Shown here one piece after another: positions 8,951 to 40,806 of a DNA stretch of 64,000 nt. The position numbers and the translations under genes were made by a program. The notes beneath the pieces were generated by a model. The model did not search any database. It was not told where the DNA came from and was given only the letters and a program-made list of their open reading frames with translations. Every line of letters starts with the position of its first letter. The first letter of the stretch is position 1. This stretch comes from an uncultured Eubacteriales bacterium (GTDB lineage: Bacteria > Bacillota > Clostridia > Peptostreptococcales > Anaerovoracaceae): NCBI GenBank assembly GCA_949285555.1, contig CASDYG010000004.1:1-64000 (forward strand). Direction: 5' to 3'.

Positions 8951-9110
8951 CATAAGCTTCCTTTCTATTTAAAATATATATTTCCTATGAGAAATTACAG
9001 TAGCCCGAGTATTATTGCTGATAGCATTTCTGATGATTGAGCTACCTATTCTCATTTATTAGCATGTCATCTACAAGCATCGTTTTGCAGACGGCGTGCG
9101 TTTTTATTCG

Positions 9111-18915: not shown

Positions 18916-20274
18916 CTAGATCAGTCCTATAATCAAGAAGCCTCCGCAGACCACTATTGCTGCTAAAAATAGGGTTATGAGGCAATATCCCATAATATCA
19001 CGTGCAGAAAGGCCCGCTATACCAAGTGCAGGCAGTGCCCAAAATGGCTGTATCATATTCGTCCAGGCATCACCCCACGCTATAGCCATACCGGTAATAG
19101 ATGGATCTACTCCAAGTGCCGCTCCTGCCGGCATCATAATAGGTCCTTGCACAGCCCACTGACCTCCTCCAGAAGGCACAAACACATTCACGATACCTGC
19201 AGAAAGGAAGGTAAAAAGTGGGAATGTGAGCTCATTTGAGATAGAAACAAATCCATTACTTATGAAGCTTGCAAGTGAAACTCCCGTTTCTGGATTAGGC
19301 GTAATCATCATTGCCATTATTCCTGCATAAAATGGGAATTGCAATATTATTCCTGCCGCTCCTTTAGCTGCGCTTGTAATAGCTGTAACATATGAAATTG
19401 GTGTCTTATGACAAATTATACCACTTATTAAAAATATAAAGTTTACTATATCAAGGGTAAGCTTAAATCCATTGCTGTAAAAATAGAAAACAAGATATAC
19501 GATACCTGCAAGTGCAATTATTGCTGAAGCTATAACGCTATTCTCAATCTTTTCAGCAGGAGTGTTAGGCTTATGATATACATATGTGTCTTCTTCCAGT
19601 AACTTAGGGTCTACCGATATTACTTCCCCTTTATCGGGATGCATCTTAGCATTGATAAATGGCATAGCAATAATAAGTACCAAAACCATTATCAGATTAT
19701 ATGGTGAAAAGATAGTCATAGTAGTAGGTATAGGCTCAGTTACTACACCCCCTGTAGCCTTTGCCAGAGCTTCTGCACCTGGTGTGGCAAGTGCCAATGG
19801 TATAGAACCTGAAAATCCAGCATGCCATATTACAAATCCGGAATAAGCAGACGCTATAAGTAGCCTATAGTCTACTCCTTTTAACTGTCTTGCTATCTCC
19901 TTTGCTAAAATTGCACCTACTACCAGCCCAAAACCCCAGTTTATCCAGCATGCAATAAGCGAGAAGAATGTAACAACAATAATTCCCTGCTTAGGGCTTT
20001 TGGCAAGAGCTGCAACCCTTGATACTATCCTCTTAACTACTGGTGCATTGGCAAGTGCACTTCCAAGTACCAATACAAGTGCCATCTGCATAGAGAATGA
20101 CAGGAGTCCCCATGCTCCACCACCCCAGGCACTTATCATTGCTATTGGTGTCTGTCCCGTGGCAGGAATGGCTGCAACAAAAACTATAACCGTTAAAATA
20201 ATACAAAATATGAATGGATCTGGAAGTAATCTGTTCACCAGATGCACACATCCATTAGTCAGCTTTCGAAACAT
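18916..20274 (-). CDS. atoE: Short-chain fatty acid permease AtoE
   Basis: 452 residues, about 11-12 membrane segments. Moves short-chain fatty acids such as butyrate or acetoacetate across the membrane, fitting the CoA-transferase genes downstream. Family motifs: NRLLPDPFIF at the N-terminus, CWINWGFGLVVGA in the first third, VFVPSGGGQWAVQGP and QPFWALPALGIAGL near the C-terminus. A longer reading frame begins at 20367, but TTAGGAGGAATT precedes the ATG at 20274 and the likely promoter (20306-20334) lies inside the extension, so the shorter form is right. Its upstream region carries one of the three TGAATC-N6-GATTCA dyads. Confidence 0.95.
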   Translation of the reverse strand: MFRKLTNGCVHLVNRLLPDPFIFCIILTVIVFVAAIPATGQTPIAMISAWGGGAWGLLSFSMQMALVLVLGSALANAPVVKRIVSRVAALAKSPKQGIIVVTFFSLIACWINWGFGLVVGAILAKEIARQLKGVDYRLLIASAYSGFVIWHAGFSGSIPLALATPGAEALAKATGGVVTEPIPTTMTIFSPYNLIMVLVLIIAMPFINAKMHPDKGEVISVDPKLLEEDTYVYHKPNTPAEKIENSVIASAIIALAGIVYLVFYFYSNGFKLTLDIVNFIFLISGIICHKTPISYVTAITSAAKGAAGIILQFPFYAGIMAMMITPNPETGVSLASFISNGFVSISNELTFPLFTFLSAGIVNVFVPSGGGQWAVQGPIMMPAGAALGVDPSITGMAIAWGDAWTNMIQPFWALPALGIAGLSARDIMGYCLITLFLAAIVVCGGFLIIGLI

Positions 20275-20305
20275 AATTCCTCCTAAATAATTTATTAACA
20301 CATTT

Positions 20306-20334
20306 ATTCTACCCCTTGAAAATACAATAATCAA
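20306..20334 (-). promoter_or_regulatory. Promoter of atoE
   Basis: Minus strand TTGATT (20334-20329), 17-bp spacer, TAGAAT (20311-20306); start site expected near 20299. Confidence 0.7.
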
Positions 20335-20388
20335 GGCATTTTTTATTCTTTTATTAAACAACTTCATAATTTTTTAAAAAATCTTTTT

Positions 20389-20406
20389 TGAATCGAAAAT
20401 GAATCA
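20389..20406 (-). promoter_or_regulatory. Putative lysine-regulon operator, atoE site
   Basis: On the minus strand TGATTC-ATTTTC-GATTCA: 11 of 12 arm bases match the TGAATC-N6-GATTCA consensus, and the ATTTTC spacer matches the kdd site exactly. Its centre is about 86 bp upstream of the atoE -10, an activator-type position. The rest of 20275-20723 is AT-rich; only the promoter of the next plus-strand gene stands out. Confidence 0.6.
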
Positions 20407-21416: not shown

Positions 21417-22196
21417 CTAGATTCTTCCTCTTTTTACGATTTCAGTAATTATATAGGAAGCTACATGTTCTGCATAGGTATGTGGTCCAAATCCGGCATC
21501 ATAGCCTAGCTCCTGTGCAAGCTCATGAGAGATTCTTGGACCTCCGCATAAGAGCAACATCTTATCTCTAAGGCCCTCCGCTTCCATAAGCTCAACCATA
21601 TTAGTTAAATTGTGGATATGAACATCTTTTTGGGTAACTGTCTGTGATACTAAGATAGCATCTGCATTTACTTCCTTTGCTTTTGCAATAAGCTCTTCAT
21701 TAGGTACCTGCGATCCCATGTTAATTGCTACTACATTTTTGAACCTCTCAAGTCCAAAATGTCCATGGAATCCCTTCATATTGATTATGGCATCTATTCC
21801 AACAGTGTGAGCATCTGTTCCTGTGGATGCTCCCACAATAACTACATCTCTCTTAATATTATCAGCGATATAGTCACCACATTCAATACGATCCATTACA
21901 TCTACTTCTACCTTAGTTACTTTGATAGATGTGTAATCTACTGTATGCTGGCACTTACCGTAAACAACAAAGAATGTGAAGCCATTGCCCATGTCATGAA
22001 AATATGTCACATTAGGCTCAGTCAGTCCCATCTTCTTTACAAGCTGCCTTGCAGCCTCTTGTCCTTCTTCACCTGCTGGTACAGGAAGGGTAAAGGCAAG
22101 CTCCATCATACCATCATTCATGGTATCTCCATATGGCTTTACCTTAGTAAGATCTACCTGATTGCCAGCAATATCTGCCTTGCATTTTGCTGCCAT
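21417..22196 (-). CDS. kamE: Lysine 5,6-aminomutase, beta (cobalamin-binding) subunit
   Basis: 259 residues. With KamD it moves the terminal amino group of beta-lysine (or D-lysine) to C5, making 3,5-diaminohexanoate, using adenosylcobalamin and PLP. The base-off B12 motif D128-x-H130-x-x-G133 (TDAHTVG) is present, and K141 in NMKGFHGHFGLE is the likely PLP-binding lysine. LLLCGGPRISHELAQELGYDAGFGP completes the Rossmann-like B12 fold (shown here only as a partial match: LLCGGPRIS). Its ATG overlaps the kamD stop by one base (TAATG), so the two are translationally coupled. The nested hairpin follows. Confidence 0.97.
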   Translation of the reverse strand: MAAKCKADIAGNQVDLTKVKPYGDTMNDGMMELAFTLPVPAGEEGQEAARQLVKKMGLTEPNVTYFHDMGNGFTFFVVYGKCQHTVDYTSIKVTKVEVDVMDRIECGDYIADNIKRDVVIVGASTGTDAHTVGIDAIINMKGFHGHFGLERFKNVVAINMGSQVPNEELIAKAKEVNADAILVSQTVTQKDVHIHNLTNMVELMEAEGLRDKMLLLCGGPRISHELAQELGYDAGFGPHTYAEHVASYIITEIVKRGRI

Positions 22197-23752
22197 TATT
22201 CTTCCCTCCTTAGCATTAGTGGTATAAATGGATTGAAATAAGCCTCATCCTTAGTGCAAACACCCTCAAGGCCCTTTCCTCCATCCTTAGGTCTTTTTAC
22301 TCCACCAAATTTTCCTTTTTCAATTGTGGAGAATAGACCTTCTTCTTCTACCTCATGTAGCAATTTTTCAGCCTTCTCTAACACCAGCTGAGCTCTCTTT
22401 TGGATTATTCCATCCTTCTTATACTCAATTTCAGAGCCTAAGTCACGACAGTTATTGAAGATGTATTTTGCATTTTCAATAGAGAGATATCTGTCATGCA
22501 TATGTGGAGTATGAATAGCCTCTGTCAGCATACCTAGAAGCTGTAAGGACTGTCCTGTCCATATGGCAATCAGATTAAAGAGGGCATCCTGAATATGACC
22601 TTTAAATATGTTTCCCGTCATAAACTTAGTAGGCGGCATGTATTTTAGAGAGGCATTAGGGAAAATCTCTCTTGCCATCTGCGCCTGTGCAAGTTCATAA
22701 AGGAATCCGTTTTCAATATCTGGATCCATTTCAAATGCATGGCCTAATCCCATTTGCCATTCTTCAATATTCGCTAGCACCGCAAACTGCTCATTGATAA
22801 ATTGTGATGCAAGTACCGTATGGGCTGCTTCATATGCATCATCTGTAGTGAGGTAGTTATCTTCACCTGAGTTAAAGATGATACCGCAGTAGCCTATAAT
22901 TACACGACTCATGAATTGGTCTACTATAGTTCTTTGCATGTTGATGTCACGGAATAAAATACCGTAGATAGCATCATTTAGCATTACATCAAGTCGCTCT
23001 AGTGCTCCCATGGCGGCAATTTCCGGCATGCACATTCCTGATGAATAATTACATAGTCTTATATATCTGCCTACCTCTTCACCTACTTCGTCCAGAGCCT
23101 TTCTCATGATTCTAAAATTCTCCTGAGTGGCGTAAGTTCCACCGAAGCCTTCAGTTGTAGCACCGTATGGTACATAGTCTAACAGTGACTGAGCAGTTGT
23201 TCTTATAACCGCTATAATATCTGCTCCCTGCCTTGCAGCAGCCTGAGCCTGTAAAACGTCTTCATATATGTTTCCTGTAGCAACGATAACATATAGGTAA
23301 GGCTGCTTTCCTTCACCAATCCTATCAAGATAGTCAAGTCTTTTTTGTGTTTGTGCTTTGATTTTCTTAAGTGCTTCTTTCGCCTTTGGAATAATTACAG
23401 CTTCGATTTCTTCATGAGATGCTATCTCAAGCTTGGTGATATCCATCTCATTTCTTGCTACCTTTTCTGCAATCTCCTGAGGCTGTAGTCCCGTCTGAAT
23501 CATAGCATTACCGATCCAGAAAGCAACACCCCTAGGCAGGCCACCAGCATCCTTAATATGATCTACTACCACATTTGGGAGTGGTGTTTCTACATCGTCC
23601 ACTCCATCAATACCCAAAAGTCTGAGGATTGTTCTTTCTGTACTTACAGTAGTATGGCGATCGATAAAATCCTGCATATCTTTCGCAATACGTCCTGCAG
23701 CCTGTCTAGCACTTTCCACAATCTTTGGATCAAGATTTAATTTGCTTTTCAT
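22196..23752 (-). CDS. kamD: Lysine 5,6-aminomutase, alpha subunit
   Basis: 518 residues, the normal size. Catalytic TIM-barrel subunit partnered with KamE. Characteristic stretches: DVLQAQAAARQGADIIAVIR, GTYATQENFRIMRKALDE and CNYSSGMCMPEIAAMGA. The ATG at 23752 follows GGAGAG and overlaps the last 23 bp of kamC, so kamC, kamD and kamE are co-transcribed. A longer in-frame start at 23773 lacks a ribosome site. Cytoplasmic; second step of lysine fermentation. Confidence 0.97.
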   Translation of the reverse strand: MKSKLNLDPKIVESARQAAGRIAKDMQDFIDRHTTVSTERTILRLLGIDGVDDVETPLPNVVVDHIKDAGGLPRGVAFWIGNAMIQTGLQPQEIAEKVARNEMDITKLEIASHEEIEAVIIPKAKEALKKIKAQTQKRLDYLDRIGEGKQPYLYVIVATGNIYEDVLQAQAAARQGADIIAVIRTTAQSLLDYVPYGATTEGFGGTYATQENFRIMRKALDEVGEEVGRYIRLCNYSSGMCMPEIAAMGALERLDVMLNDAIYGILFRDINMQRTIVDQFMSRVIIGYCGIIFNSGEDNYLTTDDAYEAAHTVLASQFINEQFAVLANIEEWQMGLGHAFEMDPDIENGFLYELAQAQMAREIFPNASLKYMPPTKFMTGNIFKGHIQDALFNLIAIWTGQSLQLLGMLTEAIHTPHMHDRYLSIENAKYIFNNCRDLGSEIEYKKDGIIQKRAQLVLEKAEKLLHEVEEEGLFSTIEKGKFGGVKRPKDGGKGLEGVCTKDEAYFNPFIPLMLRREE

Positions 23753-25433
23753 CTGCTCTCTCCTTATTAACATTTATATAGGTCCTGGCACATTGAATAA
23801 TTTCTTCATCTATACCAAGTATTTTAGCGATATTAAGTGCATCCTTTGGTACTTGCTTGTCATCTTCAACCTTGCATAAGCTGTAATCCATATATTTACC
23901 AATAATATCAATTCTTTCACTCGGCTTGGCGTAGCGGATTTCCTTGTCAAGCTTATTAAAATCTACACCCGACAGACCTCTTACCTGTAACGATGTAATA
24001 TTATGCTCTGCAAAATCTACTTCAAAGTGAGTAGTAATCACAGAAATATATTGACGCTTCATAAGGTAGCTTATAAGTCCCTTTGTCAGTGCTAAACCCT
24101 CAATAGGATTTGTACCACTGGCAATTTCATCTATGAGTATCATTGCCCTATCCTGACTAAGCTGCAATATGAGCTTTAATTCTTCCATCTCACTACCAAA
24201 GCTGGAAAGTCCACGTTCTATGGATTGGCTATCTCCTACTAGCATGCTCACAGAGGACGACAGCCCGACTTTTGCCCATTCACACGGTAAATACAGTCCA
24301 TATTGTGTCATCAGCATCATGAGCGAGATAAGCTTTAAAGAAATGGTTTTACCTCCCATATTAGCGCCGGTTATACATGCAACGCCATCTTCTAGCTCTA
24401 TGCTAATCGGACAGTATTCTTTACCTTTTGCTGCCAACAAGGCTTCTACCCGCGGATGTCTTGCATCCTTAAAGCTAATCATATGCTCACTTACTATTTC
24501 CGGTTTTTTGCAATTATGCTTGATGAAATATTCTCCCTTTGCTAAGTAGAAGTCTAGCTGTCCGAGTCTGCCTAGTGCATCAAGTATAAATTTTTCTTCA
24601 CCTGCGATACTCTGAGATAGCTGCTCACGAACGGATAATTCTTCTTCCTCAATAAGAGTGGCAATTTCTTCTGCACGTCCTCTCATTTGTGAAATATGCT
24701 CCGGTTCTTTCATTGCAAAACCTACTGAAACATAGTCTTCATGATTTTGCACCAAAAGCTCACAGCTTCTTGCTTTATCTAAAAGCGCACTACTCTTAGG
24801 GATTACAATATCAAACTTTGGAGTCAGACTGATACCCTCATTTTTTTCCAGTTCTCTTCGGATTTCTTTGAGGTTACTCCTCACCTCTTTATCCAGTGAT
24901 TTCTTGTCCGCCCTAAGCTGTTTTAGCTTTTCACTATAGGTGTCATATATATAAAATGATGGCATCCTCTCGCCGTTTGGATCCAAAATATCTACAAGGT
25001 GTTCACATTCTAAAGGCATACATGGTTCCGGGAGCTTATGCAAATCAAGTTGATTTATGAGCATGCTCACTTTTGAATATATGTGCGACATCGCAATAAA
25101 CAATCCTTTAAGATCAAAAAGCTCCGTCTCAGTAAGTATATTACCCCCGGCTCTTGAAATAGACTGAGTACAATCCTTTAGCTCATAAAATTCTTCATAC
25201 AGTCCATCTAAAGCCGCTTTTTCTTTTTCAGCAAGCCGAATGAAGTCTATGATTTTCTCTTGAATTTGAAATATTTCTCTCAGCTCGGCTTCCATACCCG
25301 GAAAGAAAATCCTGTTATTTTTCAGAGCAATATTCCCATATGGAGACTTAATATTAAGCTGCCCCAGTACATAATTAAGGCCCGACTCTTCTCTGGTTTT
25401 AACATTTGCAAGCCTTTTATTTGAGCTGTGCAT
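23730..25433 (-). CDS. kamC: KamC, MutS-like ATPase of the aminomutase reactivase
   Basis: 567 residues. The C-terminal half is a MutS-type ABC ATPase: Walker A GANMGGKT (about 354-361), SSFGSEMEEL, Walker B MILIDEIASGT (about 429) and TTHF. The N-terminal half is helical and lacks the DNA-binding mismatch domains of true MutS. Genes of this type next to kamD/kamE are annotated as the lysine 5,6-aminomutase reactivase ATPase, thought to exchange damaged cobalamin. The ATG at 25433 has AAGGAGATCTT upstream. Its position between kamB and kamD agrees with that role; a DNA-repair role is unlikely. Confidence 0.9.
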   Translation of the reverse strand: MHSSNKRLANVKTREESGLNYVLGQLNIKSPYGNIALKNNRIFFPGMEAELREIFQIQEKIIDFIRLAEKEKAALDGLYEEFYELKDCTQSISRAGGNILTETELFDLKGLFIAMSHIYSKVSMLINQLDLHKLPEPCMPLECEHLVDILDPNGERMPSFYIYDTYSEKLKQLRADKKSLDKEVRSNLKEIRRELEKNEGISLTPKFDIVIPKSSALLDKARSCELLVQNHEDYVSVGFAMKEPEHISQMRGRAEEIATLIEEEELSVREQLSQSIAGEEKFILDALGRLGQLDFYLAKGEYFIKHNCKKPEIVSEHMISFKDARHPRVEALLAAKGKEYCPISIELEDGVACITGANMGGKTISLKLISLMMLMTQYGLYLPCEWAKVGLSSSVSMLVGDSQSIERGLSSFGSEMEELKLILQLSQDRAMILIDEIASGTNPIEGLALTKGLISYLMKRQYISVITTHFEVDFAEHNITSLQVRGLSGVDFNKLDKEIRYAKPSERIDIIGKYMDYSLCKVEDDKQVPKDALNIAKILGIDEEIIQCARTYINVNKERADEKQIKS

Positions 25434-25518
25434 AAGATCTCCTTTCTGCAACTGACTAAAATAGTATTAACTATAAATATAACAATCTTTTGACAGACAC
25501 AATATTACATAATTATAG

Positions 25519-26547
25519 CTACAGTCTTACATCTATTACGGGTATATGAGGTAGTGCCTCTTGCATTGCATTTTGTAACGCCTTATGATCAAAGGAATAA
25601 CCTGATGGCGAATAGGGATTTACCGTAACAGCCGCCACATTTATATTCTTAATGACCTTTACTTTAAACCCTTTTTTACATAGCTGCCTGTATGTCACAG
25701 AATCTAAAAAGATTTTTGTAGGATCCTTGAGTATGAATTCTACCTGCTTTAGCTTTCTTATGTTAATATCAGCTATGACACTTGTAGTGAATGCTCCAGG
25801 GACAAATACATGGGTTGTACTTTCATCAATAGCTTCATCTATTACTATGCTGTTTCCAAGACCCGTGCTAATATCTAATAGCTTTAGCGATCTATGATTC
25901 CCTTCCGTTTTTATCACAGCCACCTTATCTGCTTGAATGGCTTCATGTGAAAGCTGGACGATTTCAGGATCACTAGCTTCATGCAAGCCATAGAGCTGAA
26001 CTATATGGGCAGTTTCCTCCACCACCTTTTGCAGACTTCTTGATAATACTGCACCTGTAGCCAAAATAATGGCATCAGATGTTTCAGGTGATGCTATAGA
26101 CTTTCTATCGATAGCTCCGTCAATAAGGACCAAACTGCAATCTTCCTTTTTCATTTCCTCACAAATTGCTTTCGTATCCGAAGTAGTCATTGCCCCGGCA
26201 ATTTGTACATATCCCTCTTCTCGAACACGACATATTAGCAGCTCTCCTAAAGGAGTTCGATAGTGTGACTTCCATAGAATTTCTAGACTTGCTTCTGCCA
26301 TGTTAAACAGCATATGCGGAATGCTCACAAGCGTATCTTCATACAGATAAATTCTCGGTTTTTCCGTACCCGTAACCAGATCCTTGGATTCACCATCTCT
26401 TCCTGTTGATGTGACTCCAATGCATATGCCTTCATTATCGGCTTCTTCTATCAGATAATTAAGCGCAGTAGTCTTTCCTGCATTCTTGGACATCCCCACA
26501 ATGGACAGGGTGTCATAATGTTCAGCTAAATGCTTTATTAAATTCAT
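25519..26547 (-). CDS. kamB: KamB, second subunit of the aminomutase reactivase
   Basis: 342 residues from the ATG at 26547; a second ATG two codons earlier touches the AGG of the ribosome site and is less likely. A P-loop is at the N-terminus (GMSKNAGKTT, residues 18-27), followed by a nucleotide-binding core with VLIDGAID and ILATGAVLSR. Known as a conserved partner of KamC in lysine-fermentation loci and thought to help restore inactivated KamDE. Placed between kamA and kamC in the same direction, with gaps of about 90 bp. Confidence 0.88.
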   Translation of the reverse strand: MNLIKHLAEHYDTLSIVGMSKNAGKTTALNYLIEEADNEGICIGVTSTGRDGESKDLVTGTEKPRIYLYEDTLVSIPHMLFNMAEASLEILWKSHYRTPLGELLICRVREEGYVQIAGAMTTSDTKAICEEMKKEDCSLVLIDGAIDRKSIASPETSDAIILATGAVLSRSLQKVVEETAHIVQLYGLHEASDPEIVQLSHEAIQADKVAVIKTEGNHRSLKLLDISTGLGNSIVIDEAIDESTTHVFVPGAFTTSVIADINIRKLKQVEFILKDPTKIFLDSVTYRQLCKKGFKVKVIKNINVAAVTVNPYSPSGYSFDHKALQNAMQEALPHIPVIDVRL

Positions 26548-26639
26548 ATTCATCCTGCCCTACCTTCTCATAAATAACAGCAAGGAGAAGCCCTGCATAT
26601 ACAAGGCATCTCCATAATGTACCAAAAATTAACAAATAT

Positions 26640-27902
26640 TTATTTTTCGTTTCTCTTATGTCTTTCCAGATTTGCCGGCTCCATAGATTTAATCTGAAGA
26701 CCTTCACCCAGAGCAGAAACACCCTGAGTTGGGAAGTGCCTTTTCTTAGCTCTTTCATAGTCGAAATTACATTTAACCTCTGGTAGTCTAGGCTGAGTAT
26801 AAGTAGTAATAACACCCTCGTAATTTCTCAGAATCACCTTGTCTGGAGTTTCTGAGATAATATACTGAGGCATTACCGGCGTCTTTCCACCACCACCAGG
26901 AGCGTCAACTACGAATGTAGGAACTGCATATCCCGATGTATGACCTCTTAGGCCTTCTATAATTTCAATACCCTTAGATACTGGTGTTCTGAAATGCTCA
27001 ATACCAATGGATAGGTCGCAGATGTAAATGTAGTAAGGTCTAACTCTGTTCATTACAAGCTCATGCATCAGATCCTTCATCAGGTTCTTATCATCATTTA
27101 CACCTCTTAATAGCACTGACTGGTTTCCAAGTGGAATTCCAGCATCAGCCAGCTTTCTACATGCTTCCTTGGCTTCAGGAGTCATTTCCTTAGGATGGTT
27201 AAAATGTGTATTTAGCCATATTGGATGATATTTTTTAAGCATATTACATAGCTTGTCAGTGATACGCTGAGGCATTACAACTGGCGTTCTTGAACCAATT
27301 CTAACGATCTCCACATGCGGAATCTTTCTAAGCTCTGCAATAATGTATTCAAGAGTATCATCCTCTACACAAAGTGCATCTCCACCAGAGAGAAGAACGT
27401 CTCTTACAACAGGAGTTCTTCTGATGTAATCAATACAAGCATCTATATCTTCTCTGCTTCTGGCTCCGTCTGTTTCACCGGCAAGCCTTCTTCTTGTACA
27501 ATGTCTGCAATACATGGAGCACTGGTCAGTAATTAAGAACAGTACTCTGTCCGGATATCTATGTGTCAGACCTGGTGCTGGAGAGTCTGCATCCTCATGC
27601 AATGGGTCTGCGTCATCTGCTTCAGATCTGTGTGTTTCCAAAATTGTTGGCACTGCCTGCATTCTAACAGGACATGTTGGATCATCTGGATCCATTAGAG
27701 AAGCATAATAAGGTGTAATTCCTACACGGAAGCCGTCCATTACCTTCTCAATATCTTCTCTTTCTTTCTCAGTTAAGTTTACTACCTGACAAATGTCCTC
27801 AACACTGTTAAGTCTATGAGCCACCTGCCAATGCCAGTCATTCCACTGCTCTTCTGTCACGTCCTTAAAGAGCGGAATATCTTTCCAATTCCTGATAGCC
27901 AT
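26640..27902 (-). CDS. kamA: Lysine 2,3-aminomutase (radical SAM)
   Basis: 420 residues. Converts L-lysine to beta-lysine, the first step of the pathway, with SAM, a 4Fe-4S cluster and PLP. Cluster ligands C128, C132 and C135 are in CSMYCRHCTRRR. The PLP lysine is in DAPGGGGKTPVMPQY near residue 340, and DVLLSGGDAL is the radical-SAM GGE-like motif. AAGGAGATATGTT precedes the ATG. It heads the kamABCDE part of the operon after a short gap with a hairpin downstream of kdd. Confidence 0.98.
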   Translation of the reverse strand: MAIRNWKDIPLFKDVTEEQWNDWHWQVAHRLNSVEDICQVVNLTEKEREDIEKVMDGFRVGITPYYASLMDPDDPTCPVRMQAVPTILETHRSEADDADPLHEDADSPAPGLTHRYPDRVLFLITDQCSMYCRHCTRRRLAGETDGARSREDIDACIDYIRRTPVVRDVLLSGGDALCVEDDTLEYIIAELRKIPHVEIVRIGSRTPVVMPQRITDKLCNMLKKYHPIWLNTHFNHPKEMTPEAKEACRKLADAGIPLGNQSVLLRGVNDDKNLMKDLMHELVMNRVRPYYIYICDLSIGIEHFRTPVSKGIEIIEGLRGHTSGYAVPTFVVDAPGGGGKTPVMPQYIISETPDKVILRNYEGVITTYTQPRLPEVKCNFDYERAKKRHFPTQGVSALGEGLQIKSMEPANLERHKRNEK

Positions 27903-27999: not shown

Positions 28000-29031
28000 T
28001 TATGCATACATCTCCTGGAATAGTTTCTTTAGGCCTTCATGCTCTCTTAGGCACTGTAAAGTGATTTCTGCATGACCCTTCGTATAACCATTTCCAACTA
28101 CCATGTTTACATCCTTGCCAACACCTTCAGCTCCAAGAGCAGCCTTAGTGAAGCTTGTTGCCATGGAGAAGAAGTATACGATTCCGTCATCCTTACAGCA
28201 TAGGATTGAAGCCATCTCTGTATTTTCAATATTTACGCAGTTAATTACTACATCGCATAGCTCACCGTCTGTTAGTTCAACGATCTTATTGTACATTGCA
28301 ACTGCATCTGTAGCATCAATATGGAAATATTCATCTGCAAGATCTAGGCTCTTTGCTCTGTCCTCTGACTTCTGGCTTCCTGCTGCACAGATAACCTGTC
28401 CAGTAACGCCAGCTCTCTTCTTTGCCTCGTATAAGCATAGAAGACCAGACTTTCCACCACCACCTATTACAAGCACTCTATCACCAGGCTTAACAAGCTT
28501 TGCAGTCTGAGCAGGAGCACCAGCAACATCAAGTGCAGATAGTGCTAATCCTGCAGGCATATCCTTAGGTAGTTTAGCATAGATACCACTCTGGAATAAA
28601 ATAGCCTGTCCTTTAATGTCTACCTGGTCAATATCAGGTCTAACATCTAGAATTTCCTCTATTACCAGTGGAGTTAGTGACAATGATACTAAAGTAGCAA
28701 TTTCATCTCCTGGCTTTAGATCTCCCTTGTAGTTTTCGCCTACCTCTTTAACTGTTCCGATAAGCATTCCACCTGAACCAGTCCAAGGGTTCTTGTGCTT
28801 ACCTGCCTTCTCCACGATGCCAAGCATAATCTTTTTGATTTCCTCAACATCTCCGCCTGCTCTCTTTTCAATTTCTGTGAAAGATGCAGAGTCGATGTTA
28901 AGAGTCTTAACATCAATAAGAACTTCATTGTCATAAATTTCCATTGTGTTATCAATAACATCTGCTGGCTGTGGTAGCACTCCCTTTGGAGAGATTACTC
29001 TGTGTGTTCCGTAAGGGCATCCTTTTTTCAT
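28000..29031 (-). CDS. kdd: L-erythro-3,5-diaminohexanoate dehydrogenase
   Basis: 343 residues. Oxidatively deaminates 3,5-diaminohexanoate to 5-amino-3-oxohexanoate using NAD(P); third step of lysine fermentation. The fold is zinc-free medium-chain-dehydrogenase-like: an N-terminal GroES-like part (SGGMLIGTVKEVG, LKPGDEIATLVS) and a Rossmann domain with VLVIGGGGKSG near residue 190. Ribosome site TTAGGAGGAATTTAAA. A promoter, a leader hairpin and an upstream dyad lie before it. The gene immediately upstream encodes a regulator whose first 345 residues are a diverged copy of this protein. Confidence 0.96.
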   Translation of the reverse strand: MKKGCPYGTHRVISPKGVLPQPADVIDNTMEIYDNEVLIDVKTLNIDSASFTEIEKRAGGDVEEIKKIMLGIVEKAGKHKNPWTGSGGMLIGTVKEVGENYKGDLKPGDEIATLVSLSLTPLVIEEILDVRPDIDQVDIKGQAILFQSGIYAKLPKDMPAGLALSALDVAGAPAQTAKLVKPGDRVLVIGGGGKSGLLCLYEAKKRAGVTGQVICAAGSQKSEDRAKSLDLADEYFHIDATDAVAMYNKIVELTDGELCDVVINCVNIENTEMASILCCKDDGIVYFFSMATSFTKAALGAEGVGKDVNMVVGNGYTKGHAEITLQCLREHEGLKKLFQEMYA

Positions 29032-29086: not shown

Positions 29087-29120
29087 GGCTGGATTTATCT
29101 TTGCACCTATATCTCCAGCC
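29087..29120 (-). other. Leader hairpin of kdd mRNA
   Basis: GGCTGGA (29087-29093) pairs with TCCAGCC (29114-29120) around a 20-nt loop. It lies in the 5' leader between the kdd promoter and the ATG at 29031. Flanking TAGGCT and AGCCTA could form an alternative pairing. No known riboswitch class is recognised. Confidence 0.5.
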
Positions 29121-29134
29121 TAGCTTATATACTT

Positions 29135-29162
29135 ATTATACCTGACTTAGCGGGGATGTCTA
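29135..29162 (-). promoter_or_regulatory. Promoter of the kdd-kam operon
   Basis: Minus strand TAGACA (29162-29157), 16-bp spacer, TATAAT (29140-29135). The start site near 29128 gives a leader of about 97 nt. Confidence 0.65.
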
Positions 29163-29206: not shown

Positions 29207-29224
29207 TGAATCATTTTCGGTTCA
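29207..29224 (+). promoter_or_regulatory. Putative lysine-regulon operator, kdd site
   Basis: TGAATC-ATTTTC-GGTTCA, 11 of 12 arm bases of the consensus dyad. Centre about 75 bp upstream of the kdd -10. A second TTTCGGTT copy just left of it (29199-29206) may add a half-site. Confidence 0.6.
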
Positions 29225-29289
29225 GAAAGTATATGCGAACCACCGTTGTTACACCATATGTATCACCTTTGATTATGAGCCATTTGCCA

Positions 29290-31323
29290 TTATAAATTAT
29301 ATTTTTTCTTTTTTCTCATAAGCTGGCTTTGGCTTATTCCTATAGCCTTGGCTGTTTTTCTAGTAGAACCATGCTTATTCATTGCATCTCTTAGAAGATT
29401 ACTCTCAAAAGCACTTACCATAGCCTCAAAATCCATAATCTGATTCTCCTCACTCTTTACCAGTCCCTCTTCAAAGATGTCGGGATGAAGAGCCCTCATG
29501 GTAGTATTCATGGTAATATCCTCGTTTTTCGAATAAACGATAAGTCTGTTTACAAGACTTTCAAGCTCCTTTATGTTTCCCTTCCAGCTACATTGAGTCA
29601 GATAATCAAGGGCTCCTTCTTCGATTCTCCTTTTTTGCCCAAGCTTTCTATTATACTTATCCAGGAAAAAGCGCACAAGCGGTTCTATATCTCCCCTTCT
29701 TTCTGCCAGCGATGGTATCCTGAGTCTGCCAACACTTAATAAATAAAAAAGGTCTCTTCTGAACTCACCCTTTTCAACAAGTGATTCAAGGTCCTCGCAG
29801 GTTGTAGCAATTACCCTGACATTTATCTTAACAGGTTTTCGAAGGTCGTGTCTGTATATTTCACTTTCCTGAAGTACACGGAGAAGTCTTGCCTGATGCT
29901 CATCGGGCAGTTTTTCCACCTCTGTTAAAATCAGCGTGCCATTATCAGCCTCCTCAAAAGCACCTTTCTTTGTTCTTCCAAAAAGGTCTTCGACACCAGC
30001 TTCGCTTCCAATAGTAGCACAGTTTAATTTGACGAATGGTTGCATCTTACGCGGGCTATAATTATGGATTATACCTGCCACCTTTTCCTTGCCAACGCCC
30101 TCATTTCCTGTGATTAAGATATTACTATCATATCTGGCAAGTCTTAAAGCCTCCTCCATCACGGAAGACATGGATCTGCTCTCACATATAAAGTTTTCAA
30201 TATTTATTGGATTAGCAATAAATTCCTTCACTCTTCCTTCTCGGCTTGTGGCATAAGATGGACTATCATATATGGTCTGATTTGTCGACTTTCCCTTACC
30301 CAAATATGGCATTAGGTCTTTTATTAGCTCAATATCAAAATAGTCGTAGGCTTGCAGGTAGCCGTCAGCACATCTTATATCAAGCTGCCTTGAAATTGAT
30401 TCGGTAATATAAAGCCCTATATTATAATTGTTTATGAGATTAGCAAACACAACCGTGCCACCGGTTCTTGTTGCCAGAATGTTTACCGTTTCCGCACCAG
30501 GAATATCAGCACAATTGATGGACATATCAAATAGTGAATCAGCCTCTAGCTCATCAATAAATTCAAGTGGCCTAAGAATATCTGTCCTGTATACCTTATC
30601 AAACACCTTACTGGTGAGCTTATCTATGCTTGGACCTCGCAGGACTAAATCTGCCCTTTTATCCAGCACACATACAATTCTTGCTCGCTCTCCCGCCACC
30701 TTTCTTGCAGCATAACCAAAAAGCAGGTTGCTTAGCATATTATTGCCAACCACCAATATTTTGTTTCTTCCTACTGCTTCCTGACTGATTCTGTACAAAG
30801 TGCCTGATTCATTAAAGGTGTACAACAGAAGATTTACCGGAAGTCCGTCAGGCTTATATATCAATGGTATTTCAGAGGTAATGATTGCATAACCTTGTGC
30901 TTCTATCTGACCAAAGGCCTTATCCACGTCATATATTTTATCAATATGCATAGGTATAGATGCAAGTGATGCATTACAAACTACGGGATCACCCACCTTA
31001 AAGCCCTGACGATTATCAAACTCACTGCCTATTTCGGAAACAACTCCATAGAAAAGTCCACCTGTATCTGTTACAGGATTGTGCAGCTTTCCTCTGGCTA
31101 TAATAATATCCCTGATACGATTTTTTATCTTATCCTCATTTTCACCTGCTTCCAGTGAAATTTGCTTAAAGCTTGTACCCTCCAAATGGACGGTTTTCAC
31201 CTCTACTCTCATTTCATGAGGCAAAATCTTATAGCTATTATCCAGCTTCCACGCAGAAGTAGGAAGCACATGTGCAGGCTCTAATACCCTGCTAATTCCA
31301 TACTTATTGATAGTTTTTGTCAT
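29290..31323 (-). CDS. Regulator: Kdd-like pseudoenzyme domain, AAA+ and TyrR-like HTH
   Basis: 677 residues in three parts. Residues 1-345 align end to end with Kdd: TGGLFYGVVSEIG matches Kdd SGGMLIGTVKEVG, FKVGD matches LKPGD, and LFDMSINCADI matches LCDVVINCVNI. The Rossmann glycines are lost (VVGNNMLSN against VIGGGGKSG), so it is probably a ligand sensor, not an enzyme. Residues 385-600 are an enhancer-binding-protein AAA+ module with Walker A GNEGVGKE (406-413), arginine fingers GEFRRDLFYLL and sensor II KGNIKELESL. The loop holding GAFTGA is deleted (LFGRTKKGAFEEA), and Walker B reads LILTEV. Residues 635-677 form a Fis/TyrR-type HTH. Without GAFTGA it should not drive sigma-54, but act like TyrR on sigma-70 promoters. 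It sits upstream of kdd and divergent from kal. GAGGTAGAGC precedes the ATG. Confidence 0.9.
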   Translation of the reverse strand: MTKTINKYGISRVLEPAHVLPTSAWKLDNSYKILPHEMRVEVKTVHLEGTSFKQISLEAGENEDKIKNRIRDIIIARGKLHNPVTDTGGLFYGVVSEIGSEFDNRQGFKVGDPVVCNASLASIPMHIDKIYDVDKAFGQIEAQGYAIITSEIPLIYKPDGLPVNLLLYTFNESGTLYRISQEAVGRNKILVVGNNMLSNLLFGYAARKVAGERARIVCVLDKRADLVLRGPSIDKLTSKVFDKVYRTDILRPLEFIDELEADSLFDMSINCADIPGAETVNILATRTGGTVVFANLINNYNIGLYITESISRQLDIRCADGYLQAYDYFDIELIKDLMPYLGKGKSTNQTIYDSPSYATSREGRVKEFIANPINIENFICESRSMSSVMEEALRLARYDSNILITGNEGVGKEKVAGIIHNYSPRKMQPFVKLNCATIGSEAGVEDLFGRTKKGAFEEADNGTLILTEVEKLPDEHQARLLRVLQESEIYRHDLRKPVKINVRVIATTCEDLESLVEKGEFRRDLFYLLSVGRLRIPSLAERRGDIEPLVRFFLDKYNRKLGQKRRIEEGALDYLTQCSWKGNIKELESLVNRLIVYSKNEDITMNTTMRALHPDIFEEGLVKSEENQIMDFEAMVSAFESNLLRDAMNKHGSTRKTAKAIGISQSQLMRKKKKYNL

Positions 31324-31455: not shown

Positions 31456-31473
31456 TGAACCTTTTTCGATTCA
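31456..31473 (+). promoter_or_regulatory. Putative lysine-regulon operator, regulator/kal site
   Basis: TGAACC-TTTTTC-GATTCA, 11 of 12 arm bases of the consensus. Centre about 93 bp upstream of the kal -10, an activating position. On the other strand it lies just downstream of the regulator's likely -10 and over its start site, so it should repress the regulator's own gene. Confidence 0.6.
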
Positions 31474-31534: not shown

Positions 31535-31563
31535 TTTACTATCTGGATACACTTTGTTATAAT
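31535..31563 (+). promoter_or_regulatory. Promoter of kal
   Basis: TTTACT (31535-31540), 17-bp spacer, TATAAT (31558-31563), about 98 bp before the kal ATG. Confidence 0.7.
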
Positions 31564-31660: not shown

Positions 31661-32053
31661 ATGTCTGAGAAAATTACATCTACAATTAGAGTTCGTATGT
31701 CTGCAAAGGATGCTCACTATGGAGGAAACTTAGTTGACGGTGCACATATGGTACACCTGTTTGGTGATGTGGCCACCGAATTACTTATAAAGCTTGATGG
31801 TGATGAGGGGCTTTTCTGTGCTTATGATAACGTAGAATTCCTTGCACCTACCTATGCAGGTGATTATATTGAGGCTTATGGAGAAATTACTAAAATTGGA
31901 AATACATCAAGAAAAATGTATTTTGAAGCACGAAAGGTAATTGCAACAAGACCTGATGTAAGTGCGTCAGCAGCGGACTTCTTAGAAGAACCAATCATTG
32001 TGGCTAAGGCTACTGGTACATGTGTTACTCCAAAGGAATGTAAGCGTAAATAG
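31661..32053 (+). CDS. kal: 3-aminobutyryl-CoA ammonia-lyase
   Basis: 130 residues, single hot-dog-fold domain as usual for Kal. Removes ammonia from L-3-aminobutyryl-CoA to give crotonyl-CoA. [20 protein letters not shown] carries the conserved catalytic region, and [18 protein letters not shown] the hot-dog core. AAGGAGAAAGAT precedes the ATG. It is divergent from the regulator and ends at its own terminator. The preceding enzyme, Kce, that makes its substrate is not encoded in the window. Confidence 0.94.
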
Positions 32054-38874: not shown

Positions 38875-40806
38875 CTAAAATAAATTCTTTTTGTATTTAT
38901 TATATAAATCTCTTAATTCAGCAACTGTTTTCTTTATTTCCAGTTGTAAATCCGATGCAAGTGAATAGTCCTCTTTCTCAAGTGCTTCCATTGCCCTTGT
39001 CAAAAGACTTTTTTCCGACATTCCGTCCTTGCCCAGTTTGTATCTAAGCTGATTTATCTCCTGCCAAAGCTCCCTATCATAGTCGGTAAATTCTCCGTCC
39101 TGATGAAGCATTTTACACTCTCTGATAAAGAGTCTGGTCTGTGGTATCAGCCGATCATGCAGCTCAGTTTTCCAGCGATGAAGCATCTGTGATCTATATG
39201 ATTCAATCACAACATCTATCATAACATTATCAACTTTAAAAATTTCAAGCTTATCTTTATATTCTTCAAACGCCTGAAGATTTTCCCACACCGTAGCAGG
39301 AGCCTTTCCAAACAGCTTGTCACGCTCCTCCTTGGTATAGTCGCTGAATACATTATTCTCACTTCTATATACTCTGTTTTTCTCCAGATATAAATCTTCC
39401 TGACCATATTCCTTGGATATGGCTTTTTCCAGTTCCTTTGGTTTTCGCTCTGCCTCAAGTGCATTTTCAATTCCATCAATAATTGCCATATATGAAGTGG
39501 CTATTACAAGATACGAGTTACTCTTAGGGCATGGGGATCTTAGCTCAAATCTTGTAGCAAGAGGATTTTTTACATCTCTAATCAAACCTGCCAGTACCGT
39601 CCTGTTTCGAGATGGCTCTTCAACGCTTCGTCCAAGGGATGTTACCGTACACACAGGAGCCTCATATCCTGGTTTTAGTCTGTTTAATGAGTCGTTAGTT
39701 GCATTTACAAAGGGATTCACTACATCATAATTCTTAAGCAATCCCATAAGTGCTCCATATCCAACCGGGCTCATAAAGTCCTCTTTCATATCCTTTGGAG
39801 CAAACAGACTGATGATCCTTCCATCCTTAAGGCAAGCGGCCATGCCAAGGTGAGTATGCTCTCCACTTCCTGCCACTCCGTCAAAGGGTTTTGCCATAAA
39901 TGTTACATCTAAGCTATGCTTTGTAAAAACATCACGAACTACATATTTTACCTGCTTTTCATTATCGGCAGCCTGCATGGCGTCAGCATATTTCCAGTCT
40001 ATTTCCATCTGCTCCATGACATGATCATAGCTTCCTGAATGACTCATTCTTGCCTTTACTCCGCCGACTTCTTTATGTCCCATTTCTACTTCAAAACCAT
40101 ATTTGTCCAAAATGGTAAGCGTTTCCTCAAGAGCAGTTCTTACAGGACCATAGGTCCTTTTCCAGTATTGCTCCTTTAACATTTGGGCTGTAAAAAGCTG
40201 CTCACGATCTCCCTTATCGTCAGGTGTCTTAACCCAAAATTCCAGTTCCGTAGCACTTGTTAAGATGATGTCATCAATATCATCATAGGAAAAGCTGCCA
40301 TCCAGATACTCAAAAATGTAAGGATGCTTTTTCAGCACTGCCATGAGCCTATTTTTAACGGATGCTATTGCATCACGAAGTACCACTCTTGCTCCACATT
40401 GAAAATCCTCATTATGTATCAAAAATGACGGAATTCTTAATGTGCCAATAGGTAATCCAAGCTGATGATCGATATGTGAATAATTGTAGTCCACATACCA
40501 GTTTGCCTCCAAATCCGGCACTATATCAACCTTGGCATTGTTTAAATCTGCTATTCCAGGAAGCACTACGCTTGAGCCGTCTGTCTGAACACCTTTATTT
40601 AAAATTTCTTCCATATCGTCCAAAAATACTTTAACAGGTATTTTTTCATCCGTATCATGGCCGCCCATATCAATACCCACTAGGGAAACGAATTGAACCT
40701 CTTTATGCTCCTGTAAAATGCGATTTATCTCACTTAGCTCATGCATTTCCTTAGGTATATTAAAAAGCATATCGTTCAAATCATATTGTAATTTATGTTC
40801 TCTCAT
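38875..40806 (-). CDS. Glutamine synthetase family protein, long form
   Basis: 643 residues, about 200 longer than ordinary GlnA. The catalytic core is intact: ATELEFW, HKEVGGVKARMSHSG, AKPFDGVAGSGEHTH and NATNDSLNRLKPGYEAP are the ammonia, glutamate and ATP-site motifs; RFELRSPCPKSNSYL is near 430. The tail (about 490-643) is helical and charged. Likely makes glutamine from glutamate, ammonia and ATP, which would fit a cell that releases much ammonia from lysine; a different amine substrate cannot be excluded. GGAAGGATACGT precedes the ATG. Confidence 0.85.
   Translation of the reverse strand: MREHKLQYDLNDMLFNIPKEMHELSEINRILQEHKEVQFVSLVGIDMGGHDTDEKIPVKVFLDDMEEILNKGVQTDGSSVVLPGIADLNNAKVDIVPDLEANWYVDYNYSHIDHQLGLPIGTLRIPSFLIHNEDFQCGARVVLRDAIASVKNRLMAVLKKHPYIFEYLDGSFSYDDIDDIILTSATELEFWVKTPDDKGDREQLFTAQMLKEQYWKRTYGPVRTALEETLTILDKYGFEVEMGHKEVGGVKARMSHSGSYDHVMEQMEIDWKYADAMQAADNEKQVKYVVRDVFTKHSLDVTFMAKPFDGVAGSGEHTHLGMAACLKDGRIISLFAPKDMKEDFMSPVGYGALMGLLKNYDVVNPFVNATNDSLNRLKPGYEAPVCTVTSLGRSVEEPSRNRTVLAGLIRDVKNPLATRFELRSPCPKSNSYLVIATSYMAIIDGIENALEAERKPKELEKAISKEYGQEDLYLEKNRVYRSENNVFSDYTKEERDKLFGKAPATVWENLQAFEEYKDKLEIFKVDNVMIDVVIESYRSQMLHRWKTELHDRLIPQTRLFIRECKMLHQDGEFTDYDRELWQEINQLRYKLGKDGMSEKSLLTRAMEALEKEDYSLASDLQLEIKKTVAELRDLYNKYKKNLF

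Follow-up and report, generated by a model that had tools for sequence, protein, structure and literature searches.

In TyrR, the AAA+ domain is without the GAFTGA motif, sensing is of the ACT/PAS type, and the DNA site, the TyrR box, reads TGTAAA-N6-TTTACA. In the MocR/GabR regulators, the sensor has an enzyme-like fold. We know of no regulator resembling MocR/GabR or RtcR in which a pathway's own dehydrogenase is joined to an AAA+ activator. Here, a regulator of this architecture is described from a stretch of 64,000 nucleotides (hereafter, the window; positions 1 to 64,000 of contig CASDYG010000004.1, assembly GCA_949285555.1) of an uncultured bacterium of the Anaerovoracaceae. By its sequence, the N-terminal half of the regulator is a homologue of Kdd, L-erythro-3,5-diaminohexanoate dehydrogenase, with a replaced glycine loop for nicotinamide adenine dinucleotide (NAD), fused to an NtrC-type AAA+ domain and a helix-turn-helix (HTH). 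It was read, with a probability of roughly 0.68, as a one-component regulator of lysine fermentation that senses a pathway intermediate and now activates sigma-70 promoters; we infer both its ligand and the sign of regulation. The gene and its domains are as follows.

29290-31323, minus strand: Kdd-sensor/AAA+/HTH regulator (P0001), 677 aa, ATG start, from the open reading frame and profile searches
30289-31323, minus strand: Kdd-like sensor domain, residues 1-345, from sequence alignment, NCBIfam, PDB relatives and fold match
29500-30201, minus strand: AAA+ domain of the sigma-54 activator type with its lid, residues 375-608, from Pfam and alignment
29293-29433, minus strand: helix-turn-helix HTH_50, residues 631-677, from Pfam (41.8 bits, cut-off 27)

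The HTH_50 domain, which we take to be the TyrR-type helix-turn-helix, places the regulator near TyrR, with which it also shares an AAA+ domain without GAFTGA and a palindrome with a six-base spacer. Unlike TyrR, it has a different operator sequence and stays under the cut-off of the curated TyrR model (180 vs 576 bits); the curated PrdR model was not passed either (225 bits, cut-off 795). To our knowledge, within a limited literature search, no series of GAFTGA-less activators with a matching promoter change has been described. Single cases are already on record, namely, the NtrC proteins of Rhodobacter capsulatus and Caulobacter, in which L1 is deleted and for which action at sigma-70 promoters was reported or inferred, according to the available part of the source (PMC10274813). 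Similar to those proteins as that text presents them, the window regulator has an NtrC-type AAA+ domain without the L1 loop, and its target promoters are of the sigma-70 type with an operator upstream, as judged from sequence only. Unlike those proteins, which are two-component response regulators, it has a Kdd-derived domain as its sensor, and in the Kdd-sensor family, the loop and the target promoters differ together between close relatives. RtcR, on the evidence of the accessible text (PMC9650030), carries a Rossmann-type fold on an AAA+ sigma-54 activator, as do the Kdd-sensor relatives. Both RtcR and MocR/GabR differ from the window regulator in their folds and ligands.

In the accessible part of a survey of Clostridiales sigma-54 regulons, which covered only sigma-54-bearing genomes, the list of activator sensor domains holds no Kdd-like one (PMC6615313). 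Only GAFTGA-bearing activators were kept in a second study, where lysine 2,3-aminomutase appears among the sigma-54-regulated genes in Bacilli, as far as its available text goes (PMC12316311). The word 'regulator' does not occur in the available portion of an article on lysine-to-butyrate conversion (PMC4697335), and no description of the Kdd-sensor/AAA+/HTH architecture was found in the titles and abstract openings of the open-licence papers that the searches listed.

The identity of the sensor domain was determined by alignment, profile searches and structure prediction. Residues 8-336 of the regulator were aligned with the Kdd of the window at 28% identity (E 2e-40), and the NCBIfam Kdd model NF052381 matched residues 9-174 with 131 bits (E 3.6e-38), under the curated cut-off of 200 bits that the true Kdd of the window clears with 259 bits. 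In the PDB, residues 1-345 had three distinct KDD sequences (7dl0/7dl1/7dl3) as their sole relatives at E<=1e-3. The Pfam matches in the rest of the protein were Sigma54_activat at 379-533 (142.6 bits, cut-off 20.2), AAA_lid_14 at 541-608 and HTH_50 at 631-677, and Walker A is present (GNEGVGKE). A structure model was obtained with AlphaFold2 on 43 aligned fusions, with a mean predicted local distance difference test score (pLDDT) of 82.7 and a predicted template modelling score (pTM) of 0.60. In Foldseek searches, the N-terminal half of this model matched KDD 7dl0_B with a template modelling (TM) score of 0.80 by target length over 360 columns (root-mean-square deviation 4.0), while the middle matched the AAA+ domains of sigma-54 activators (3m0e_A, 0.89). 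A preliminary description of this DNA had aligned residues 1-345 along their full length with the downstream Kdd; the homology was confirmed, but the alignment stops near residue 336. Its assignment of the N-terminal region to the Kdd family, and not to an unrelated one, agreed with the profile match, the PDB relatives and the superposition on KDD that it had proposed.

The residues that the sensor has kept and lost were then compared with those of Kdd. The loop glycines G191, G193 and G196 are present in 44/44 Kdd enzymes, while the window regulator has N194, M196 and N199 and does not show the GxGxxG dinucleotide loop of the enzymes; the loss of the Rossmann glycine motif noted earlier thus holds for all three glycines. 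In the 27 sensors of type A, our label for the kam-locus kind (two of the 27 come from a locus without kdd), the three columns hold N in 24 and S in 3, L in 17, M in 7 and I in 3, and again N in 24 and S in 3. The Kdd residues K78 and N81 (44/44 enzymes) are invariant as K79 and N82 in 43/43 full-length fusions; three Kdd enzymes of a second kind have D in place of N81. Moreover, the equivalent of Kdd E302 was kept in 27/27 type A, 3/3 type B and 12/15 type C/D sensors. E302 aligns with Glu310 of the solved KDD, which bonds the NADPH amide according to the available part of a review (PMC9902596). Like Kdd (7dl0/7dl1/7dl3/7dl7), the sensor shares fold and sequence over residues 8-336 and keeps the equivalents of K78, N81 and E302; unlike Kdd, it is without the glycine loop, scores under the curated Kdd cut-off and is fused to a regulator.

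Consequently, the cleft looks kept and the phosphate-binding loop does not, and the Kdd-derived domain is probably non-catalytic. NAD binding has likely been lost, although the Glu310 equivalent, kept in every type A sensor, leaves some doubt. The expectation of a domain without redox chemistry was supported by the replaced glycine loop and weakened by this retained residue. A sensor that reads the redox state through NAD(P)(H) instead of a pathway intermediate would suit the dinucleotide-binding fold and the kept glutamate contact, but with all three loop glycines replaced in 27/27 type A sensors, we consider it unlikely. The regulator most likely reports on the lysine pathway because a conserved DNA site precedes both kdd and kal, the gene for 3-aminobutyryl-CoA ammonia lyase. 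The ligand would be a compound of that pathway, most likely the Kdd substrate 3,5-diaminohexanoate, the oxo product that Kdd makes from it or a closely related compound. A sensor whose likely ligand can be guessed from the parent enzyme is rare for one-component regulators.

In the case of the AAA+ domain, the L1 GAFTGA loop is absent from the window regulator through an 11-residue deletion, with the junction between T451 and K452 at 29971/29970. The domain also shows a D-to-T change in Walker B at residue 467 (LILTEV), an N-to-C change in sensor I and an R-to-L change in the second arginine finger (FRRDLFYLL). An intact GxFTGx motif was found in 40/43 fusions of a first set, and in a second set it was present in 59/79 fusions and absent from 20/79, the window included; no full-length fusion was found in 2 of the 80 loci of that set (L146, L186). 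With two models, no rpoN was detected in the genome of the window, which is 90.3% complete, and no other comparable Sigma54_activat protein was detected in it (best 145.6 bits, others <=33.1). Four genomes of the same genus have rpoN and intact loops. The rpoN search over relatives, for which 50 of the 80 loci were given and L151 was left out, showed rpoN in 19/19 genomes of the other loop-less relatives and in 27/29 other genomes searched that have a loop-bearing fusion. The loss of the loop as a mere result of rpoN loss was thus rejected as a general rule, although it is possible in the window lineage itself.

With its AAA+ loop lost and no rpoN seen in its genome, the window copy probably does not work as an ordinary sigma-54 activator. 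Its target promoters were accordingly compared with those of the relatives. The features concerned are as follows.

28000-29031, minus strand: kdd, L-erythro-3,5-diaminohexanoate dehydrogenase (259 bits, cut-off 200)
31661-32053, plus strand: kal, 3-aminobutyryl-CoA ammonia lyase, divergent from the regulator (191.4 bits, cut-off 160)
29135-29162, minus strand: predicted sigma-70-type promoter of kdd, TAGACA (29162-29157), 16 nt, TATAAT (29140-29135), 11/12 matches
31535-31563, plus strand: predicted sigma-70-type promoter of kal, TTTACT, 17 nt, TATAAT, 10/12 matches
29207-29224, minus strand: predicted kdd operator TGAACCGAAAATGATTCA, centred 53 bp before the -35 hexamer
29236-29253, minus strand: second, degenerate predicted operator with 3 mismatches, centred 82 bp before the kdd -35
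31456-31473, plus strand: predicted operator TGAACCTTTTTCGATTCA in the gap that separates the regulator from kal, centred 70 bp before the kal -35

Sigma-54 boxes were scored as TGGCACG-N4-TTGCW (maximum 16) in the 550 bases after and the 450 bases before the regulator, with a threshold of 13 that was chosen after the first listing was seen; as with most counts in this work, kinship was ignored. At least one box before kdd or kal was found in 56/59 loop-bearing and 1/20 loop-less loci (Fisher p 3e-14), the numbers being 53/59 vs 1/20 on the kdd side and 44/59 vs 0/20 on the kal side, while about 4% of shuffled regions reached the threshold on each side. At the window targets, no -24/-12 box reached the threshold, the best scores being 11 of 16 on the kdd side and 9 of 16 on the kal side. 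The boxes are also missing in 18/19 of the other loop-less relatives, though rpoN is in their genomes. On the other hand, a sigma-70 score of at least 10/12 before kdd was obtained in 15/16 loop-less vs 5/52 loop-bearing loci (p 9e-9); 4/20 loop-less and 7/59 loop-bearing loci were omitted from this scoring, their kdd start being unrecognised or the gap too short. On the kal side, a -12-like TTTGCA was found in 30 loop-bearing loci, preceded by GG in every case, and in 29 of them it lies 47-48 bp after the operator. In 8/20 loop-less loci, TTTGCA survives 45-48 bp after the operator, in 7 of these without the -24 GG, and this is likely a trace of a former sigma-54 promoter.

Thus, most relatives look like sigma-54 activators, with a GAFTGA loop and -24/-12 boxes before kdd or kal, and the kin seem to have moved the control of the lysine genes between sigma-factor classes more than once with the same regulator and DNA sites. 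A minimum of three gains or losses is needed to explain the loop label on a tree of the 79 sensor domains. Among the three independent pairs of this tree, the promoter label, set at a threshold of 14, followed the loop label 2.7 times on average and the opposite never occurred. Close relatives with and without the sigma-54 loop offer a system in which the change from an ATP-driven sigma-54 activator to a sigma-70 regulator can be studied.

The operator was identified by a dyad count free of assumptions, in which GAACC-N6-GGTTC came first with 49/79 loci against 0 in one set of shuffled regions. At <=2 mismatches, TGAACC-N6-GGTTCA was found on the kdd side in 44/59 loop-bearing and 13/20 loop-less loci and on the kal side in 35/59 and 15/20, respectively, compared with 1.3% of shuffled regions. 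The kdd and kal operators of the window have one mismatch each to this sequence. In the form TGAACC-N6-GRTTCA, whose R was picked after the window sites were seen, exact matches occur in only two places in the available 1.45 Mb of the genome, before kdd and before kal. The palindrome is thereby named as the probable site of control of lysine fermentation in Anaerovoracaceae and their close relatives.

The spacing of the operators differs between the two kinds of loci. In loop-bearing loci with both elements, the centre of the kal operator is 37-38 bp before the -24 box (28/28), and the kdd operators lie at variable distances, often paired 31-32 bp apart. Among the loop-less loci, 15/16 have an operator (<=3 mismatches) centred 53-56 bp before the kdd -35 and 11/16 have one at 85-87 bp, while the kal-side spacing is looser, mostly 54-65 bp to the -35 (70 in the window). 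Under random uniform placement, the 53-56 agreement of six representatives was matched in 0/200,000 trials, the representatives being hand-picked and the range being set after it was seen.

From these results, the following mechanism is proposed. The regulator would bind the palindrome TGAACC-N6-GRTTCA upstream of kdd-kamABCDE and kal, and an accumulating metabolite of the lysine pathway would occupy the old active-site cleft of the Kdd-like domain, which may alter the oligomerisation of the regulator on its operators. From one or two operators, which lie about 90 and 120 bases before the kdd start, the regulator would contact RNA polymerase with the housekeeping sigma factor and switch on kdd and, likewise, kal. 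A centre near -90 is a suitable operator position for contact-type activation. Oligomerisation is probably the sole role left to the AAA+ domain, since its catalytic residues are altered. The ancestor would have done the same job via sigma-54, as most relatives appear to, and the GAFTGA loop and the -24/-12 boxes would have been lost in the window lineage and at least two other places in the tree, with the sensor, DNA-binding domain and operators kept.

Several observations weigh against this mechanism. Activation from about -90 and looping repression would both fit the arrangement. Sigma-70-like matches are common in the AT-rich stretch of the window (13 found, 9.0 expected, standard deviation 3.5), the loop-less locus L139 has a sigma-54 box exactly at the threshold, and such a box is missing from three loop-bearing loci. 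The tree-aware test can reach just p 0.25, since no more than three independent pairs are available. Homology and gene context are the sole arguments for the ligand, and as the same sensor occurs in paralogues that adjoin quite different genes, the ligand is not fixed by the fold. The loop-less regulator might also be a repressor or anti-repressor with the same sensor and targets, which would hold the sigma-70 promoters shut from upstream by looping until the ligand releases them. Tandem operators can loop, and with 11/12 consensus matches, the kdd promoter of the window perhaps needs no activator. This possibility was considered doubtful, since the operators lie upstream of the -35, at the two distances given above, and not over the promoter, the fixed spacing is what contact with polymerase would lead one to expect, and the ancestor was probably an activator.

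The state of the genome and of the AAA+ domain also speaks against sigma-70 activation to some extent. As the genome is 90.3% complete, rpoN could lie in a gap, and metagenome-assembled genomes may lack genes. Sigma-54-like boxes numbered 4 in the own genome and 4-7 in six others, with a reversed control of 0 in 6/7 and 2 in G015; the own genome thus has about as many as its congeners, and the count was uninformative as a test of rpoN loss. It is nevertheless very improbable that the regulator still acts as a sigma-54 activator with rpoN hidden in the gap and another loop doing the job, since 11 residues of the loop are deleted, Walker B has T for D, neither target has a box at the threshold, and no other activator of the class has a comparable score in the genome. 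The AAA+ and HTH domains of the window share 53% and 62% identity with those of the congener L131, vs 82% and 94% among congeners, which could mean decay. A regulator on its way to a pseudogene, with an AAA+ domain drifting after rpoN loss and kdd and kal now constitutive, would account for this divergence, the missing rpoN and the changes in Walker B, sensor I and the arginine finger. Decay was judged improbable, since the frame is intact across 677 codons despite saturated synonymous sites, both operators are kept, and the 19 other loop-less relatives have rpoN, so that the loop is not lost merely by rpoN loss. Moreover, although synonymous sites were saturated in nearly all pairs compared, loop-less pairs showed low amino-acid change at that divergence.

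Taking the family as a whole, we lean towards the view that a Kdd-type enzyme was turned into its own class of sensor for AAA+ activators, of which several genomes carry two or more paralogues. In one branch, the lysine regulon, with the activator loop and both target promoters, would have passed from sigma-54 control to that of the housekeeping sigma factor some three or more times; the sensor, DNA-binding domain and operators would have been kept, and the kdd operator would have settled at almost the same spacing to the new -35. Regarding the origin of the fusion, a first tree comprised 47 sensors with 47 enzymes and a larger one 50 sensors with 98 enzymes, one of these being the KDD of Candidatus Cloacimonas from another phylum; in each, the two groups were split at one branch (Shimodaira-Hasegawa-like approximate likelihood ratio test, SH-aLRT, 100). 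These were quick trees with flagged long branches and an unsure exact rooting. The fusion is old and probably arose once. It is not a copy of the kdd of this operon because sensors and enzymes are on opposite sides of one branch, and a recent duplication of the adjacent gene was ruled out. The proposed descent from the pathway enzyme therefore remains as an old common origin, not as derivation from the kdd next door.

The fusion was found in many other kam loci, as the preliminary description had suggested looking for. A full-length match was obtained in 29/99 relatives. Among 33 genomes of the family with a Kdd gene, a count that omits one genome with only a 51% relative, the type A fusion is full-length in 23 and split in 2, while 5 have a type D regulator and 3 have none. 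The gene order kal-regulator-kdd occurs in 18/32 family loci holding kdd, some loci being cut by contig ends. Outside the order, fusions were found in G166 and G240 among 391 genomes of the class and in G632 among 398 genomes of the phylum, both sets being sampled evenly; each lies within a few kb of a Kdd-like gene. The genome-collection scan gave 147 sensor relatives, of which 80 were kept, including those of Emergencia timonensis, Aminicella lysinilytica, Clostridium aminobutyricum and [Eubacterium] infirmum; the first two belong to Anaerovoracaceae in the NCBI taxonomy. Many relatives of the sensor came from gut or rumen samples according to the record titles, and none was found in the viral contigs searched. 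In L097 (G023), the kam regulator, which adjoins the kam operon, is interrupted by stop codons.

In the order relatives L113, L115 and L116, the position of the regulator in the kam operon is taken by a PAS-type sigma-54 activator, and kdd is preceded by sigma-54 boxes; the sensor of this activator, unlike that of the window regulator, is PAS and not Kdd-like. The best NCBIfam model for the activators of L113 and L116 was PrdR, under its cut-off. Five genomes without a regulator beside kdd carry a type D regulator elsewhere. Of these, L107, L109 and L118 have a site of the operator kind and a sigma-54 box before kdd (in L118 at the scoring threshold), and L108 and L110 have no site of the operator kind there. 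In G046, which has no rpoN and no regulator beside kdd, neither an operator nor a sigma-54 box was found before kdd.

The paralogues of other types, which share the architecture and occur in some genomes, adjoin different genes. The type B paralogue in L082 adjoins a second Kdd, kce, kal and a TRAP transporter (model matches), and this gene group looks like one that serves to take up and degrade an external beta- or 3,5-diamino acid. Type B regulators in L082, L084, L252 and L254 stand in one gene group with a Kdd-like gene and kal. Type C activators with a Kdd sensor were observed in L085-L088, L090 and L091, and the neighbours of type C paralogues are a D-serine ammonia-lyase (L085, a model match), a xanthine/uracil-type permease (L090, L091) or a CoA-transferase with a thiolase and an aminotransferase (L081). 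Other ligands are probably sensed by this fold in type C. Type D paralogues adjoin an amino-acid permease (L093) or an antiporter (L095).

The remaining features of the window include the rest of the lysine operon and one candidate site.

26640-27902, minus strand: kamA, lysine 2,3-aminomutase (608.7 bits, cut-off 525.4)
25519-26553, minus strand: kamB, lysine 5,6-aminomutase reactivase subunit (model match)
23730-25451, minus strand: kamC, lysine 5,6-aminomutase reactivase ATPase, MutS-like (model match)
22196-23773, minus strand: kamD, lysine 5,6-aminomutase subunit alpha (model match)
21417-22196, minus strand: kamE, lysine 5,6-aminomutase subunit beta (model match)
20389-20406, minus strand: weak operator-like site TGATTCATTTTCGATTCA upstream of the AtoE-like gene at 18916-20367, a candidate third target

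The AtoE-like site is not beyond chance alone, with 10 matches found in the window at <=2 mismatches and 8.1 expected. As a further target, kce was rejected, its 3.8 kb showing no operator at <=2 mismatches and one 3-mismatch site that appears on both strands. A one-mismatch operator was observed at G000:C7:41905-41922, approximately 200 bases upstream of a gene named by eye as pyruvate:ferredoxin oxidoreductase-like. In the leader between the kdd promoter and kdd, an inverted repeat GGCTGGA...TCCAGCC lies at 29088-29121 (minus strand) with no T-run after it. Tandem Kdd genes precede kamA in L061, L062, L072, L078, L101 and L255, and the window has one. Away from the lysine genes, positions 38875-40806 (minus strand) encode a 643-aa glutamine-synthetase-like protein that scores far under the GlnA cut-off. 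Positions 1721-8953 (minus strand) encode a repetitive protein of 2410 aa, with immunoglobulin-like repeats recognised by eye and a sorting-signal-like end (...PKTGDDTNQMGWIALLLTAIGGLFASRKRKED).

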